Source: Candidatus Bipolaricaulota bacterium (GTDB lineage Bacteria; Bipolaricaulota; Bipolaricaulia; Bipolaricaulales; Bipolaricaulaceae). Taken from it: a DNA stretch of 47,807 nucleotides. Within the stretch, counting starts at the first letter, position 1; each line of letters begins with the position of its first letter. Both the position numbers and the translations under genes were made by a program. The stretch spans positions 1 to 47,807 of the forward strand of contig JAOACA010000005.1 in assembly GCA_026418075.1 (NCBI GenBank). The letters are read 5' to 3'. Positions 98 to 47,807 of this stretch are shown piece by piece. The notes below the pieces were generated by a model that saw nothing but the letters and a program-made list of their open reading frames with translations, was not told the DNA's origin and searched no databases.

Positions 98-1600
98 TCA
101 CCAGCCCCTTGTGGTGAACGTGAAGATTTCCCACGGAGTCTGCGTTGGGAACACCGTGGTGTAGCCGTTGTTCGTGGCGATGGAGACGGCGTTGGCCGTG
201 GTGACGTCGATGGCGAACGCCGCCCGCATTTCCCAGTGGTACATCCGGTGGGGCTGGAGGCGCTCCCAGGCGCTACCGGAGATCCCCGTGTACTGGGCGG
301 AGGTGGCGTTGAGGACGCGAATGACGATCCCCGCCGTGTCCCCGTGGGGCATGTCCCAGAAGGCGAGCTGGTAGAACTGGGTGGTCCCGACGATGGCCGT
401 GGGGGCCCAGGTGAATGTGGGGAAGAGGTCCACGTCCTTGGCCTCATCCGCGGGGGAGACGAGCCGCACGTCCCAGGTGGGAAGCGGGGTGCACGAGGCC
501 TCCAGCGGCGCCGATTCCACGTTGCCTCGGTAGGCCACGATGCGGTACGTGGCCGTGACCCCCACCTGAAGATCGGGGGTGCTGTCGCGGTAAAGGTAGG
601 TCGAGGCCCCTGGGGCGGCCACGGTGTAGAGGAGCCGGAAGTCGGCCTCGCCCGCAAGCTTGCGGTAGATCCGGTAACCGGTGATTGCTCCTCCACCGGT
701 GTCGCTGGCTGACCGCCGCCAGCGGAGCTCGACGTACACGTTGCCCCCGGCGGGGGCTGCCGTGGGCTCTAGGCCGTAGAAGGCCACCTTCTTGTTGAGG
801 GTCACCGCGAGGGCGGTCCGCGCCGGGATGAGCACCCCAAAGACAGCGTCGGTGAGGATGTTGGCCGTGGGCTCAAGGGGCGGGGCAATCGATACGGGGT
901 CGGAGGCAGGGGTTACGTAGACCCGGTAGATCACGTGGGTTCGGTTTTCGTTGTAGTCGTAAACCACGACCTCAAACGTCGTCCACCCCGAGACCCCATA
1001 GGTGGCGGGGTTGATGGTGAGCGTTCCTGTCGTGTAGGTGTTGGTGCGGAGCTCCCGCGGGGCGGTGAGAAGGCTTGCCCCCGGCATCTTCCCGAACGCG
1101 GCGTAGATGTAGAGGATGTCGTTGGGGCCCTGGGCGTTGATCGTCACGTTGACCGGTCCGGAGACCGTGGCCCCCTCGCTGATCCCGGTGATCGTGACCG
1201 TGGGCGGGGTGAGGGACCAGTTGGGGTTCACCACCGGCTTCTGGACGATGTCCACCCGGGCCGTGCTCGCCACCTTCACCCCCTCCACCCGGGAGGTGGC
1301 GTGGCCGTCCTTCCGTACCTCAAGGACGTAGAGGCCCTCGGGGAGCACGAGCCGGTAGAAGCCCCGCCCGTCCGTGACCGTCGAGGTCCCGTAGTACGGC
1401 GAGCCCACGCTGTACATGGGGTTGGCGCCGCCCAAAGGCCAGGCCTTGACCGTTGCTCCAGCCACGGCCTCGCCGGAGAGGTGATCCGTGACGTACCCTT
1501 CCACGGTCCCCGTGGACGGCGCGGAGACAAACAGACACCCCGCCAGGAACGCCGCCCCCAGGGAGAGAAGAGCTGCAAACACCACTCTTGTCTTGGTCAT
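98..1600 (-). CDS. Surface lipoprotein with carboxypeptidase-regulatory-like and FnIII-like domains
   Basis: The protein has 500 residues. The tracked ORF is longer, but the real start is the ATG at 1600, which has GGGAGGCGACG before it and begins MTKTRVVFAALLSL with a lipobox LAGC at residues 19-22. Residues about 30-110 look like a carboxypeptidase regulatory-like beta sandwich (GYVTDHLSGEAVAGATV, later TDGRGFYRLVLPEG). An Ig-like segment (PPTVTITGISEGATV) follows. Two fibronectin-III-like segments are near residues 290-380 (ITGYRIYRKL) and 390-500 (LVSPADEAKDVD). No catalytic motif is visible. The gene lies 10 nt after the CCG barrel-like gene and just before another lipoprotein, so an exported-protein operon is likely. 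Role unknown; adhesion or structure is inference. Confidence 0.8.
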   Translation of the reverse strand: MTKTRVVFAALLSLGAAFLAGCLFVSAPSTGTVEGYVTDHLSGEAVAGATVKAWPLGGANPMYSVGSPYYGTSTVTDGRGFYRLVLPEGLYVLEVRKDGHATSRVEGVKVASTARVDIVQKPVVNPNWSLTPPTVTITGISEGATVSGPVNVTINAQGPNDILYIYAAFGKMPGASLLTAPRELRTNTYTTGTLTINPATYGVSGWTTFEVVVYDYNENRTHVIYRVYVTPASDPVSIAPPLEPTANILTDAVFGVLIPARTALAVTLNKKVAFYGLEPTAAPAGGNVYVELRWRRSASDTGGGAITGYRIYRKLAGEADFRLLYTVAAPGASTYLYRDSTPDLQVGVTATYRIVAYRGNVESAPLEASCTPLPTWDVRLVSPADEAKDVDLFPTFTWAPTAIVGTTQFYQLAFWDMPHGDTAGIVIRVLNATSAQYTGISGSAWERLQPHRMYHWEMRAAFAIDVTTANAVSIATNNGYTTVFPTQTPWEIFTFTTRGW

Positions 1601-1610
1601 CGTCGCCTCC

Positions 1611-2780
1611 CTAGAAGGTGAACGTCCAGCCCAGGGCGAGGCTCGCCGGCCCGCCCACGGTGACCCCGAGCACAAGGTCCAGCGTGAAGTTGGCCATGAC
1701 CGGGACCTTCGCCACCGCCTCCAGCCGCCGCAGGCCAAACAGGGACCCCATCGGCTGGAAGTAGGACGTCAGGGTCAACGTGTACTTCCCGCCGCAGCAG
1801 CCCGCGCCGCAGAACCCGAGCTTCAGGTACTCGAACTCCGGCCCCTGGAAGATGTCCTCCTCCAGCAGGGCCTCCAGCGCGGCCACGTTCAGCGCGGTGA
1901 GGAGCTCCAGGTAGTTGCACTCCCCAAGGGCGCAGCGGACCTTGAACCCGTAGATCGCGATCCCCTGCCAGGTGTTCCCGACGAACACCGCGTCCCCGTA
2001 CACCGCGAGGCACCCCTCGATCCCCTTCCACCGGGGGGTCACCGCCACCGTCTTCGCCGTCGTGGTGTACCGAACCGTGGTGTCGAAGGTCACCCCGCAG
2101 CAGAGGGGCACCCCCTTGAGGGTGAGGGAGAGGGCGTCAAACCCGGCCTTGGTGAACGTCAGCGCGCTGTCAAGGGTCACCCCACAACAGAAGGGGATTC
2201 CCGTGGCGTCGATCTTGAGGTTGGTGAAGGAGGACCCCCCCGGGAACGGGTCCACGGGGTAGGTCTTCGTGTACGTCCCGACCCCGGTGAAGGTGATCGT
2301 AAACGGGCTCAGGGACGCCCCGAACCCGGCGGCCAGGCTGACCTTCGTCCCCCCGAGGTCGGCCTTGGCCACGACCACCGCTCCCCCCGACGGGCCGCCG
2401 AAGAAGTACCCGGGGATCGTGGGCCCGACGTGGGCGGTGTAGAGGTCCAACTCCAGTCCGCCCCAGGAGAAGGTCGTCTTCCCCAGGGTGTACAGGTACG
2501 CGGGGGCCAGGGGGCCAAAGAGCACCGTCCACTCCGTCTTGGCCGGCCCGAACATCCCCCCGACCGTCACGGTCTGCCACACGTACCCATCCGTGCCGAA
2601 GAACTCTGCCGTCCCCCCCACCTTCCACCCGGACCAGTCCGCGGTCAGGGTGAGCTGGTTGTCGATGCTGATCGTGGGGAGGAGGTTGACTTTGGCCGAC
2701 CAGCTGCCGCTGAACGTCATCTGGGCAGCCGCCACGGCCGACACGCACACCACAAGCGAGAGCCACAACCGTGCCTTCAT
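1611..2780 (-). CDS. Cys-rich exported barrel-like protein with paired CCG motifs (left copy)
   Basis: The protein has 389 residues. The ATG start at 2780 is preceded by GGCGAGGAGGTACG. A signal peptide (MKARLWLSLVVCVSAVAAAQ) is followed by alternating hydrophobic/polar strands and an aromatic C-terminus (GWTFTF), as is common for outer-membrane barrels. Ten mature cysteines occur as CCGV (198-199), CCGV (227-228), C257, C283/C288 (CNYLEL) and FCGAGCCGG (324-329). All ten have counterparts in the 387-aa gene at 44942-46105, along with VMANFTL and the same last residues. Residues 184-212 and 213-242 form a tandem repeat. I do not recognise the family. Outer-membrane or sheath location is inference; disulfide or metal roles for the cysteines are untested. 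Confidence 0.8.
   Translation of the reverse strand: MKARLWLSLVVCVSAVAAAQMTFSGSWSAKVNLLPTISIDNQLTLTADWSGWKVGGTAEFFGTDGYVWQTVTVGGMFGPAKTEWTVLFGPLAPAYLYTLGKTTFSWGGLELDLYTAHVGPTIPGYFFGGPSGGAVVVAKADLGGTKVSLAAGFGASLSPFTITFTGVGTYTKTYPVDPFPGGSSFTNLKIDATGIPFCCGVTLDSALTFTKAGFDALSLTLKGVPLCCGVTFDTTVRYTTTAKTVAVTPRWKGIEGCLAVYGDAVFVGNTWQGIAIYGFKVRCALGECNYLELLTALNVAALEALLEEDIFQGPEFEYLKLGFCGAGCCGGKYTLTLTSYFQPMGSLFGLRRLEAVAKVPVMANFTLDLVLGVTVGGPASLALGWTFTF
2055..2231 (-). repeat. Tandem 29/30-residue repeat inside the left CCG protein
   Basis: Residues 184-212 and 213-242 repeat the pattern F-x2-L-x-I/L ... G-I/V-P-F/L-CCGV-x-L/F-D. Unit lengths are the same as in the right paralogue. Confidence 0.7.
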
Positions 2781-2907: not shown

Positions 2908-3042
2908 CAGAGGCAAGGAATTCCATCGATATCCGTTTTATTCTTTCTAGGTTAGGTTTAGAAATGCCCACTATTCTTGTTGACCCTGCGATTGCGTTGG
3001 GGATTGGCGCTCGGCGTCGGGCGGCGTACCATGGTGTACGCC

Positions 3043-4053
3043 ATGCCGAGGGCGATCCTGTGGGAGCGGATAGGGGAGGAGCGCGTCCGGTGCGCCCTCT
3101 GCCCCCACCGCTGCCTCATCCCGCCCGGAGGGCGTGGGGTGTGCGGGGTCCGGGAGAACCGGGAGGGGACCCTCTACGCCCTCACCCACGGCCGCCTTGT
3201 CTCCCAGGCCCTGGACCCGATCGAGAAGAAGCCCCTATACCACTTCCTCCCCGGCTCCCTCGCCCTGTCCGTGGCCGCGGTCGGCTGCAACCTCCGCTGC
3301 GACTTCTGTCAGAACCACGTGATCTCCCAGTACCCCCGGGAGCACCCGGGGGCCGTCCCCGGCGAGCGGGTCCCCCCCGAGGCCGTGGTCCGGGCGGCGG
3401 AAGAGGCGGGCGCCCCGGCCATCGCCTACACCTACACCGAGCCCACGGTGTTCTTCGAGACGTGCCTCGAGATCGGGAAGCTCGCCCGCGCCCGGGGGAT
3501 CCGGAACGTGTTTGTGACGAACGGCTACATGACCGCGGAGGCCCTGGGGGAGGCTCAGGGGTGGCTCGACGGGGCGAACGTGGACCTCAAGGCGTTCTCA
3601 GACGACTTCTACCGCCGCTACTGCGGAGGATCGCTCCAGCCGGTGCTGGATACGATCGGCCGGATGGTCGAGGCCGGGATCTGGGTCGAGGTGACGACCC
3701 TCGTCATCCCCGGCCGGAACGACTCCGAGGAGGAGCTCCGCTGGATCGCCCAGTTCCTCGCCGGCCTCTCCCCGGACCTCCCCTGGCACGTTTCCCGGTT
3801 CGTCCCCGCCTACAAGGTCCAGGACCGTCCGCCCACGCCGGTGGCGACCCTTCGGCGGGCGCGGGAGATCGGGCGCGAGGCGGGGCTCCGGTACGTCTAC
3901 CTCGGGAACGTCCCCGGGGAGGGGGAGGACACGGCCTGTCCCTCCTGCGGCCGGGTCGTCCTCCGCCGGTACGGGTTCCGGGTTCTGGAGAACGCCCTTG
4001 TCGACGGCCGCTGCCCCGGCTGCGGGGAGGCCATCGCCGGCGTCTGGTCCTAG
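3043..4053 (+). CDS. amrS: AmmeMemoRadiSam-type radical SAM enzyme (AmrS-like)
   Basis: A radical SAM protein related to pyruvate formate-lyase activating enzymes. The sequence has an N-terminal CALCPHRC segment, the cluster motif CNLRCDFC (Cys 82, 86 and 89 with the start used here), and a C-terminal pair CPSCG ... CPGCG ending in GVW. This order fits the AmmeMemoRadiSam radical SAM family, whose substrate is not established. The tracked TTG start at 2977 is unlikely. I use the ATG at 3043 (MPRAILWERIGEERVRC), which matches where the family usually begins and has TACCAT 10 nt upstream; the ATG at 3031 is an alternative. No MEMO or AMMECR1 partner gene is in the window. The stop shares CTAG with tsaE on the other strand. 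Confidence 0.8.
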   Translation: MPRAILWERIGEERVRCALCPHRCLIPPGGRGVCGVRENREGTLYALTHGRLVSQALDPIEKKPLYHFLPGSLALSVAAVGCNLRCDFCQNHVISQYPREHPGAVPGERVPPEAVVRAAEEAGAPAIAYTYTEPTVFFETCLEIGKLARARGIRNVFVTNGYMTAEALGEAQGWLDGANVDLKAFSDDFYRRYCGGSLQPVLDTIGRMVEAGIWVEVTTLVIPGRNDSEEELRWIAQFLAGLSPDLPWHVSRFVPAYKVQDRPPTPVATLRRAREIGREAGLRYVYLGNVPGEGEDTACPSCGRVVLRRYGFRVLENALVDGRCPGCGEAIAGVWS

Positions 4054-44785: not shown

Positions 44786-44814
44786 TTGACAGGGGACAGC
44801 CGTCTCGCTACCAT
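44786..44814 (+). promoter_or_regulatory. Strong promoter of the right CCG gene
   Basis: TTGACA, 17 bases, TACCAT. This is the closest match to the full sigma70 consensus seen in the window. Transcription would start near 44821, giving a leader of about 120 nt before the ATG at 44942. Confidence 0.75.
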
Positions 44815-44820
44815 CGGCCG

Positions 44821-44941
44821 CGTATCCTGGCAAAGAGGGAGGTGGTGGACCGAACGAGGAGACCGTTGTGCGTGCGGGATATCGGGATCCCGAAAGGCAG
44901 TACAACCGGAATCTGAGTAAGGAACCAAGGAGGATGGAACG
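44821..44941 (+). promoter_or_regulatory. Long 5' leader of the right CCG gene
   Basis: About 120 nt with a 10-bp palindrome CGGGATCCCG near 44883-44892 and an AAGGAGG site close to the start. No known riboswitch is recognised. The leader could stabilise or regulate an abundant envelope-protein mRNA; this is inference. Confidence 0.4.
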
Positions 44942-46105
44942 ATGAAGCGGGCTCTCGCGATTGCTGTTGCGCTGTGTACGCTTGGGTTTGCGGGCTTCTC
45001 CCAGATCGCCATCAAGGGGAGCTGGACGGCCTCCGTGTGCCTTGTCCCCTCGACGACCCTCACGAGCACCCTCAACCTGACCTACACGGTCGCCGGGTTT
45101 GACATCACGAGCATCACCGGGTTCGGCGCGGCCGGGATCACGTCCCAGCGGTTCACGTTCAAGGGCGTGTTCGGGCCGTTCTCCGCGTCGGGGAACGTGT
45201 GGTTCCAGCCCTCGCCGGCCGCCTACCTCGCCGCGGACGCGGTGACGAGCTTTGACTTCGGCGGGATCGCGATCGGGGCCACGGTCCGCCACTGGACGCC
45301 GGGGAACTTCCGGACGACCGAGTGGGCGCCGGACAGCGACCCCTGCGCGACCCAGACCCCGCCCGGTGTCGGCTACCTCCAGTACATCTTCACCGGGACG
45401 ATCTCCCCGCTTTCGATCCGCGCTCGGTTTGCGGACTGCTGCACCGGGGCCTCGTTCCAGGACCTGCGGATCTCCCTCACCGGGGTCGACCTCTGCTGCG
45501 GGATCAAGTACAACGCGGTTGTTGACTTCACGAAGGCCGGGTTCCAGAGCCTGACCCTCTCCGGGATCAACATCCCGCTCTGCTGCGGCGTGTCGTTCGA
45601 CCTCTCGATCACCTACTCCGTCGCCGCCAAGTCCGTGACCTTCACCCCGAAGTTCGCCGGGATCGCCGAGGCGTGCTTCACGGTGTGGGGCGGGCCGGTC
45701 TCCGGCGCGACGACCAACATCTGGGAAGGCCTCCGGATTGACGGGTTCCGGATCCGCTGCACGATCGCCGACTGCAACTACCTCGAGTACGTCCACGCCT
45801 TCGCTCCGACGGCTGGGACGATCCCGTCCGCGATCCGCGCCAAGTTCCTCGCGGCCTGCCAGGAGAACGAGTACCTCGAGCTCGGGTTCTGCGGCGCCGG
45901 CTGCTGCGGCGGGAAGTACGAGGTCAGCCTCCGGATCCTGTGGTCCACGACCCTCACCAACCCCGGCCTCTTCGGCGTGACCCGGTTCGTCGGCTCGGCG
46001 AAGATCCCGGTGATGGCGAACTTCACCCTCAACCTCGACTTCGTGATGCCGGCCGCGGCCTGCGCTTCGGCCAGCTTCTGCTTCGGCTGGACGTTCACGT
46101 TCTAG
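44942..46105 (+). CDS. Cys-rich exported barrel-like protein with paired CCG motifs (right copy)
   Basis: A 387-residue protein, paralogous to the gene at 1611-2780. Signal peptide MKRALAIAVALCTLGFAGFSQ is followed by GSWTASVCL, strand-like repeats, and the same C-terminal GWTFTF. Shared landmarks are two CCG motifs (185-186, 214-215), C245, C273/C278 (DCNYLEY), FCGAGCCGGKY (317-326) and IPVMANFTL. Extra cysteines are C33, C135, C166-167, C306, C374 and C380. Residues 171-199 and 200-229 are the tandem repeat. It has a strong promoter, good SD and an intrinsic terminator, as expected of a highly expressed envelope protein. Function and exact location are unknown. Confidence 0.85.
   Translation: MKRALAIAVALCTLGFAGFSQIAIKGSWTASVCLVPSTTLTSTLNLTYTVAGFDITSITGFGAAGITSQRFTFKGVFGPFSASGNVWFQPSPAAYLAADAVTSFDFGGIAIGATVRHWTPGNFRTTEWAPDSDPCATQTPPGVGYLQYIFTGTISPLSIRARFADCCTGASFQDLRISLTGVDLCCGIKYNAVVDFTKAGFQSLTLSGINIPLCCGVSFDLSITYSVAAKSVTFTPKFAGIAEACFTVWGGPVSGATTNIWEGLRIDGFRIRCTIADCNYLEYVHAFAPTAGTIPSAIRAKFLAACQENEYLELGFCGAGCCGGKYEVSLRILWSTTLTNPGLFGVTRFVGSAKIPVMANFTLNLDFVMPAAACASASFCFGWTFTF
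45452..45628 (+). repeat. Tandem 29/30-residue repeat inside the right CCG protein
   Basis: Two units share the pattern F-x2-L-x-I/L ... CCG-I/V-x-F/Y and each ends about 12 residues after the CCG. The left paralogue has the same pair at 2055-2231. Confidence 0.7.
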
Positions 46106-46126
46106 TCGAGCCGCTGCGCTTACACG

Positions 46127-46159
46127 GCGGGCCCTGGGAAACCAGGGCCCGCTCTTTTT
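46127..46159 (+). terminator. Intrinsic terminator of the right CCG gene
   Basis: GCGGGCCCTGG pairs with CCAGGGCCCGC across a GAAA loop and is followed by TCTTTTT. Classic Rho-independent structure about 20 nt after the stop. Confidence 0.92.
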
Positions 46160-46523: not shown

Positions 46524-47807
46524 CTACGGGGCGTCCCCCTCGAGCTCCCGGATCGTCCCCGTCACCACGTGGAACCCCAAGGTCCCCTGGGCGATCCGGA
46601 AGTCGTGGACCGGGAGCACGGCCCCGATCGCCTCCACGGGCTTGAGGAACAGCATCGGGTTGTAGGGCGGGGAGACCTTCTTGGAGCGGAGGAAGGCCAT
46701 CGCCCGGGCGTCGGCCGGCGTCCGGGGGGTGGGGTCCCCGTCGCCGTCGAGGTCGAGGTACAGCTTGAGCTCGAGGATCCAACCGGCGTCCGTGAGCTCG
46801 AACTGGAGGTCCACCCACCCGGACCCGATCGTCCCCTGCCAGAGGAGGTTCCGGTTGTTGTTCGTGAGGGTGGGGGCCGGGCCGGAGCTGGGGGTCACGG
46901 CCACGTTCCGGAACTGGCCCACGGTCCCAAGCTCCACTTGGAACGGGCGGGGGCTCGTCCAGGTCGCGCTCCCAGCCACGGTGACGTGCCACCGGTACTG
47001 GGGGTCGCCCCACACGTAGATCCCGGGCTTGTCAATCGTCGGCATCCCGGGGAGGCTCGGGGGCGGCGGAGGCGGGGTCCCCACGGTGATCGTCCGCGTG
47101 GTCGTCCCCGTCGCCCCGAGGTTGTCGGTCACGGTGAGGGTCACGGTGTAGGTTCCGGGGGCGGTGTAGCGCTTCTGGATCTGGGGCCCGGTGCCCGTGG
47201 CCCCGTCCCCGAAGTTCCAGCTCCAGGCCACCACCGCCCCATCGGGGTCGGTCGAGGCCCGGCCGTCGAACGTGATCCACTGGTTCACCTGGGGGTTCGC
47301 CGGGGAGAAGGTGAACGAGGCCGTCGGGGGCTGGTTGGGAGCCGGTTGGATCGTGTACGGGGCCGATCCTTCGGCCCACGCCCCGGCCGGGACGTTTGCG
47401 GAAAGCCACGCCCGGACCTGGGAGAGGAACAGGGGCCCGTTCGTCGAGAGGATCGGGTACCCGGCGGGGTAGCTCGTCGGGAAGAGGGGGATCGCCCGGT
47501 CGGCGGCGAAGGCCACGATCTGCTCCGAGCCCACCGGCTCGGAGGTGATGAAGGCGTAGGTCGCGTTCCGCGGGAAGACGGTCGTCCCGGCGGGAACCGG
47601 AAGCGCCGCGTCTCGCCAGTTGGGGAAGAGGAGGATCGCCCGGCCAGCGGCGTCGAGCTCCACGAGGTAGAGGTGGCTCGCCCTCGACAGGGTCACCGTG
47701 ATCCGCACCGCCTCGCCCACGGTGTAGCTCCCCTTGTCCGTGGCCACAGCGAGCGCGAGCGCCGGCGCAGTCAGGGTGAGCTGGGCGGTGTTGTTCCCCT
47801 CGTCGGA
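46524..47807 (-). CDS. Exported PKD/DUF4384-type protein, N-terminus beyond the window
   Basis: The tracked ORF starts at a GTG at 47747, but the frame is open to the window edge and reads SDEGNNTAQLTLTAPALALAV before it, the tail of a CARDB-like sandwich, so the gene is 5'-truncated. At least 427 residues are present. After this tail comes a DUF4384-like segment (GSYTVGEAVRITVTLS, LYLVELDAAGRAILLFPN), a PKD domain (TFDGRASTDPDGAVVAWSWNFGDGA, in part) and a C-terminal domain of unknown type (YVWGDPQYRWHVTV, YLDLDGDGDPTPRTPAD). Surface or secreted role is likely. No catalytic motif is seen. Confidence 0.8.
   Translation of the reverse strand, partial: SDEGNNTAQLTLTAPALALAVATDKGSYTVGEAVRITVTLSRASHLYLVELDAAGRAILLFPNWRDAALPVPAGTTVFPRNATYAFITSEPVGSEQIVAFAADRAIPLFPTSYPAGYPILSTNGPLFLSQVRAWLSANVPAGAWAEGSAPYTIQPAPNQPPTASFTFSPANPQVNQWITFDGRASTDPDGAVVAWSWNFGDGATGTGPQIQKRYTAPGTYTVTLTVTDNLGATGTTTRTITVGTPPPPPPSLPGMPTIDKPGIYVWGDPQYRWHVTVAGSATWTSPRPFQVELGTVGQFRNVAVTPSSGPAPTLTNNNRNLLWQGTIGSGWVDLQFELTDAGWILELKLYLDLDGDGDPTPRTPADARAMAFLRSKKVSPPYNPMLFLKPVEAIGAVLPVHDFRIAQGTLGFHVVTGTIRELEGDAP

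Follow-up and report, generated by a model that had tools for sequence, protein, structure and literature searches.

Two cysteine-rich proteins of Bipolaricaulota predicted to form 22-strand outer-membrane barrels, one OmpB-like and one paired with a lipoprotein

Two related genes and their neighbours

The window, by which we mean the whole 47,807-nucleotide stretch analysed here, belongs to a genome of 1.25 Mb (86% complete) from the phylum Bipolaricaulota (Acetothermia). It contains two genes for cysteine-rich exported proteins, P0003 close to one end and P0002 close to the other (Table 1). The plus-strand reading of positions 1611–2780 is nonsense; the open reading frame of P0003 lies on the minus strand, and a lipoprotein gene starts 10 bp after its stop codon. 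On the other side of the window, a protease-like gene is convergent with P0002, an arrangement conserved beside P0002-type barrels in the host's own family (f1). Positions 46524–47807 encode part of this large exported protein, including a CARDB-like part; the S8-like protease part was read by eye from a full-length relative in L045. No Rfam or tRNA features were found in the window.

Table 1. Genes and sequence features of the window
Feature	Position	Strand	Basis or remark
Lipoprotein, 500 aa, lipobox LAGC, CarboxypepD_reg domain	98..1600	-	conserved partner of the P0003 subfamily
P0003, 389 aa, lipoprotein-paired subfamily	1611..2780	-	ORF, AF2, tree
P0003 FCGAGCCGG, aa 323-331	1788..1814	-	
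P0003 CCG motif 2, aa 227-229	2094..2102	-	
P0003 CCG motif 1, aa 198-200	2181..2189	-	
AmmeMemoRadiSam-type radical SAM enzyme	2977..4053	+	TIGR04337, E 3e-102
Sigma-70-like promoter of P0002, TTGACA-17-TACCAT	44786..44814	+	sequence, comparison of relatives
14-bp palindrome TTCGGGATCCCGAA (here ATCGGGATCCCGAA) in P0002 leader	44881..44894	+	conserved in P0002 subfamily
P0002, 387 aa, predicted 22-strand outer-membrane beta-barrel, OmpB-like tether-associated subfamily	44942..46105	+	ORF, AF2, tree
P0002 CCG motif 1, aa 185-187	45494..45502	+	predicted periplasmic turn 10/11
P0002 CCG motif 2, aa 214-216	45581..45589	+	predicted periplasmic turn 12/13
P0002 FCGAGCCGG, aa 316-324	45887..45913	+	predicted periplasmic turn 18/19
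Intrinsic terminator, 12-bp stem, CTTTTT tail	46126..46153	+	directly 3' of P0002
C-terminal part of exported S8-type protease with PKD, DUF4384	46524..47747	-	convergent neighbour of P0002

The original prediction described two open reading frames alignable from end to end, and this proved correct: BLASTP aligned the proteins over essentially their full length (141 of 388 positions identical, 36%; 176 bits; E 9e-56). They have in common the motifs FCGAGCCGG and VMANFTL, a terminal GWTFTF and ten aligned mature cysteines. The mature P0002 contains 17 cysteines in 367 residues and the mature P0003 10 in 369. The pair had also been called unlike any recognised family. Searches of Pfam, NCBIfam and the PDB sequences returned no match to either protein, whether the query was a single sequence or a profile built from 43 relatives.

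That the two genes bracket the window, on the other hand, turned out to be meaningless. Family members occur at no fewer than seven separate places in this genome, and the orthologues of P0002 and P0003 in G003, the nearest relative, lie on different contigs. With a family of so many copies, the 42-kb spacing is coincidental. A recent duplication within the window could be ruled out, since in a tree of 98 members P0002 and P0003 fall into two distinct groups, both well supported and both extending across several genera. They are ancient paralogues from different subfamilies with different gene partners, and therefore do not form one system.

Distribution of the family

The resemblance goes well beyond chance, as a search with a single sequence at E <= 1e-5 already detected the family in 63 of 100 Bipolaricaulota genomes. 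A 24-member profile matched 91 of the 100 at the same threshold, with up to 14 matches each, and among them were all 40 genomes of the host's own family. We also scanned 85,462 GTDB species genomes for CG[PA][GA]CCGG, a narrow pattern that could miss cysteine-poor relatives elsewhere; it returned Bipolaricaulota records alone, except for a few contigs with apparently wrong titles. Two contigs labelled Thermotoga (L061, L080) belong to a Bipolaricaulota genome of the host's own genus, with the same coordinates as G002:C82 and C5. Two others, titled 'archaeon' (L060) and 'Thermoanaerobaculia' (L077), were rejected as cases of spread outside the phylum: they fall within the family tree among Bipolaricaulota sequences and are probably mislabelled bins. 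As judged by these searches and as far as they reach, the family is restricted to Bipolaricaulota and nearly phylum-wide there, in keeping with the lineage specificity that had been proposed.

Some members are considerably longer than the two in the window. Those of 600–700 aa (L012 on the genome's own contig C17, 1585–3432; L059, L061, L065) carry an insertion of 230–320 residues in the loop that follows strand 7, at profile positions 124–137, and often stand in tandem behind a 440-aa member. At L013 (own contig C21, 1–2985) and L078 (3–3851), DUF11/CARDB/InlB-type repeats precede the barrel domain in the same frame; between repeats and barrel come a sorting-like hydrophobic segment and a further segment resembling a signal. 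In G010 and G032 such repeat-plus-barrel open frames exceed 3200 aa, and each is either a single giant protein or a pair of genes with no stop between them. At L015 (own contig C18, 25–2373), the gene for an exported protein with HYR/PKD-like repeats is followed directly by one for a divergent barrel-like protein, which matches the profile weakly.

Predicted barrel fold and export

AlphaFold2 models built with relatives reached a mean pLDDT of 86.6 and a pTM of 0.74 for P0002, and 89.4 and 0.76 for P0003. Both show an N-terminal signal helix followed by the same 22 antiparallel strands in one meander; P0003 has an extra hairpin in one loop. In P0002 the signal helix covers residues 2–20, the strands run from 25–35 to 378–386 and the C-terminal beta-signal reads FGWTFTF, while residues 211–260 are less certain (pLDDT 68–75). 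Hydrophobic and polar residues alternate within the strands, with a contrast that none of 2000 within-strand shuffles reached for either protein. A Foldseek search of the PDB with P0002 ranked BtuB first (E 4.8e-6, TMq 0.56), followed by LptD, AlgE and porins; with P0003 it gave OmpT, BtuB, porins and ushers. FimD and LptD are among the fold matches of the pair, and the TM-scores are modest, at about 0.5. The idea of a barrel-like protein ending in Phe is thus supported by models whose top fold matches are outer-membrane barrels, and no match to a soluble enzyme was obtained.

The C-terminus is well conserved in the family. The last residue is aromatic in 86 of the 88 members that could be read to the end, and 74 of them have the full beta-signal G(-5)/hydrophobic(-2)/aromatic(0). 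Both proteins would be exported by their signal peptide and passed to BamA by way of this aromatic beta-signal. BamA (Omp85, PF01103) was present in all 20 relatives' genomes searched, the host's own included.

TonB-dependent receptors likewise have 22-strand barrels, and one of them, BtuB, is the best fold match of P0002. Unlike these receptors, P0002 and P0003 have short loops and no plug domain (PF07715), and their strand 1 begins a few residues after the signal cleavage site, without room for a TonB box. The TonB-receptor plug family was also absent from all of the 20 genomes. An identity as TonB-dependent receptors was rejected because of the missing plug, and we expect both proteins to fold into 22-strand barrels without one.

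Gene partners of the two subfamilies

Wherever a P0003-type locus offers enough sequence, the barrel gene is directly followed by one for a lipoprotein of about 500 aa with a CarboxypepD_reg domain. The radical SAM gene stands divergently before the barrel in most of these loci and is probably not part of P0003's function.

The partner of the P0002 subfamily is a putative tether of 160–220 aa, consisting of a signal peptide, one SLH domain, a short coiled coil and a C-terminal hydrophobic helix. Tether loci were collected starting from SLH hits, not from barrels (n=29). A family barrel lies directly downstream on the same strand at 17 of them, in families f2, f3 and f5; a detectable downstream barrel is missing at the other 12. 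With some 1500 genes, a number estimated from genome size, and no more than about 14 barrels among them, we put chance adjacency at roughly 1% per locus. In the host's own family, the barrel is likewise directly downstream of the tether in G013, G014, G015, G019 and G020. Within the genus, the two genes are about 1.5–3 kb apart and divergent in five genomes (G001, G002, G003, G007, G010), and 15–17 kb apart in two more. The tether of the host genome itself is on a separate contig (C29; L114:2815–3297), so linkage cannot be judged there.

Family f6 has tethers, and no member of the barrel family was detected in it; these genomes may use a different barrel. At L151 (G043, f6), an SLH tether stands without a family barrel beside it. 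A 784-aa frame at L110 (G002:C56) differs from the short tethers in having two or more SLH domains and is possibly a true surface-layer protein.

Conserved cysteines

The ten aligned mature cysteines are, in P0002 numbering, C185, C186, C214, C215, C245, C273, C278, C317, C321 and C322. According to the predicted topology, all of them lie in or at the short turns that join strands 10 to 19 on the periplasmic side. Over the 98 members, C245 is retained in 99%, C321 and C322 in 96% and C186 in 93%, and distant members keep only these core four. The other cysteines were gained in twos: 185 with 273 (phi 0.76), 214 with 215 (0.91) and 278 with 317 (0.83).

It is quite possible, if somewhat doubtful, that these residues form structural disulfides which staple the periplasmic turns, rather than binding a metal or Fe-S cluster or staying free thiols. 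Their gain in twos beyond the core of four would suit disulfides, as would the predicted position of all of them at the exported, periplasmic rim. However, members often have an odd number of cysteines in total, and vicinal CC pairs are rarely disulfide-bonded to each other, which counts against this reading. Moreover, DsbA is absent from the host genome and from nearly all f1 and f2 genomes tested, and VKOR from all f1 genomes tested. There are f3 and f4 genomes with DsbA/VKOR, and the family members in them are weak and distant. The mature tether of the host genome has no cysteine at all, so the cysteine ring does not serve a disulfide to the tether.

Since Dsb and VKOR are missing despite the gains in twos, metal or Fe-S binding has to be considered as well. 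We regard it as distinctly unlikely that the ten-cysteine ring, with its core of C186, C245, C321 and C322, binds metal ions or an Fe-S cluster and closes or gates a plug-less 22-strand pore. If it did, this would be a thiol- or metal-gated outer-membrane channel in Dsb-less anaerobes, of a kind not described before. The ring raises a separate new question, that of thiol chemistry at the outer membrane of an anaerobe.

Comparison with known systems and proposed function

In Thermotoga maritima, the gene of the porin OmpB (TM0476) adjoins that of OmpA1 (TM0477), and both proteins build the toga (PMC3387000). OmpB is the major porin of the Thermotoga outer sheath (PMC3387000, PMC9388160); it and, by prediction, P0002 are exported barrels of about 390–420 aa ending in Phe. 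The likeness to the P0002 subfamily is one of architecture and gene order, with the barrel gene beside a gene for an SLH domain, a coiled coil and a C-terminal hydrophobic anchor. Unlike OmpB, which is reported to be low in cysteine, the Bipolaricaulota barrels are cysteine-rich and occur as several paralogues, and the 45 kDa rod of Thermotoga is far longer than their tether. OmpM of diderm Firmicutes and SlpA of Deinococcus-Thermus are SLH-tethered outer-membrane barrels as well, acting as channel and wall anchor. These have SLH domain, coil and barrel in one chain (PMC9388160, PMC10628300), with 30 strands in SlpA, whereas in Bipolaricaulota a gene of its own encodes the tether, and the barrel, which lacks an SLH domain, is predicted to have 22 strands. 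For the P0003 subfamily, LptD/LptE and SusC/SusD offer a parallel as pairs of barrel and lipoprotein. However, no sequence relationship to them was found, the lipoprotein of P0003 has a CarboxypepD_reg domain, and LpxC was absent from all 30 genomes searched, indicating that lipid A is not synthesised. A role in LPS transport was rejected on the same ground.

We consider it likely that both proteins are outer-membrane barrels specific to Bipolaricaulota, P0002 being an OmpB-like porin with a tether and P0003 a channel with a lipoprotein. The family, its export, the predicted barrel fold and the gene pairing are firm on the basis of sequence comparison and modelling. We infer pore activity, location, contact with tether or lipoprotein, and abundance; porin function, tether contact and abundance are assigned by analogy with Thermotoga. 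P0002 would most likely be the general porin of a lipid-A-free outer membrane, which its tether would hold to the cell wall, with OmpB and OmpA1 as the model for the two. P0003 would probably be a more specialised channel working with its lipoprotein. As a counterpoint, a 22-strand barrel without a plug would make a very wide pore, larger than those of usual porins. The best reading of P0002 is an OmpB-like porin in a lipid-A-free outer membrane.

The barrels could instead serve secretion or assembly rather than diffusion, by carrying or exporting other parts of the surface, with P0003 and its lipoprotein as an export pair like LptD/LptE. The large insertions after strand 7 in the 600–700-aa members, the repeats upstream of the barrel in the same frame at L078 and L013, the constant lipoprotein gene behind P0003-type barrels and the presence of LptD and FimD among the fold matches would all suit such a role. 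Yet neither P0002 nor P0003 carries a passenger or has any but short periplasmic turns, a substrate for Lpt is not expected where LpxC is absent, and the P0002 type is linked to a structural tether; this alternative therefore seems rather unlikely. It is very improbable that the proteins form a cysteine-rich beta-sheet layer outside the cell without spanning a membrane: they are exported, beta-rich, cysteine-rich and genetically linked to an SLH protein, but the amphipathic alternation of their strands, the conserved BAM signal and the barrel matches in the PDB argue against a surface-layer or cell-wall structural protein, and no SLH domain was found in P0002, P0003 or any A2 member and no Ig-like domain in P0002 or P0003. 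Of the 'envelope layer or pore' first suggested, the pore is thus the better supported half and the layer the weaker one.

A porin role bears on the envelope of the phylum. Its first closed genome was reported to be without LPS genes, in agreement with the absence of LpxC, and the only close study of Bipolaricaulota cells that we found left one versus two membranes undecided (Hao et al. 2018, PMC6092417). The near-ubiquitous barrel family, BamA in every genome searched and the adjoining SLH tether argue for two membranes without lipid A. The tether adjoining many family barrels suggests, by analogy, a two-membrane envelope like that of Thermotoga, and each small genome carries several paralogues predicted to be pores. 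One antibody or one purified protein could test the number of membranes in Bipolaricaulota, and the findings bring a little-known phylum into the discussion of how outer membranes came to be fixed to the wall.

Expression signals of P0002

The claim of high-expression signals held for P0002. Its promoter is conserved, with a -35 element that is invariant in seven species of the genus, and it has an AAGGAGG site. The terminator directly behind it makes the gene a single-gene transcription unit. RNA structure in the P0002 leader was not better than in shuffled sequences (z -1.07). In the loci examined, the palindrome TTCGGGATCCCGAA recurs some 55–70 bp 5' of the start codon of P0002-group genes from many species, and may be an operator for a regulator. 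Taken as sequence features, these signals fit a strongly expressed, separately regulated single gene.
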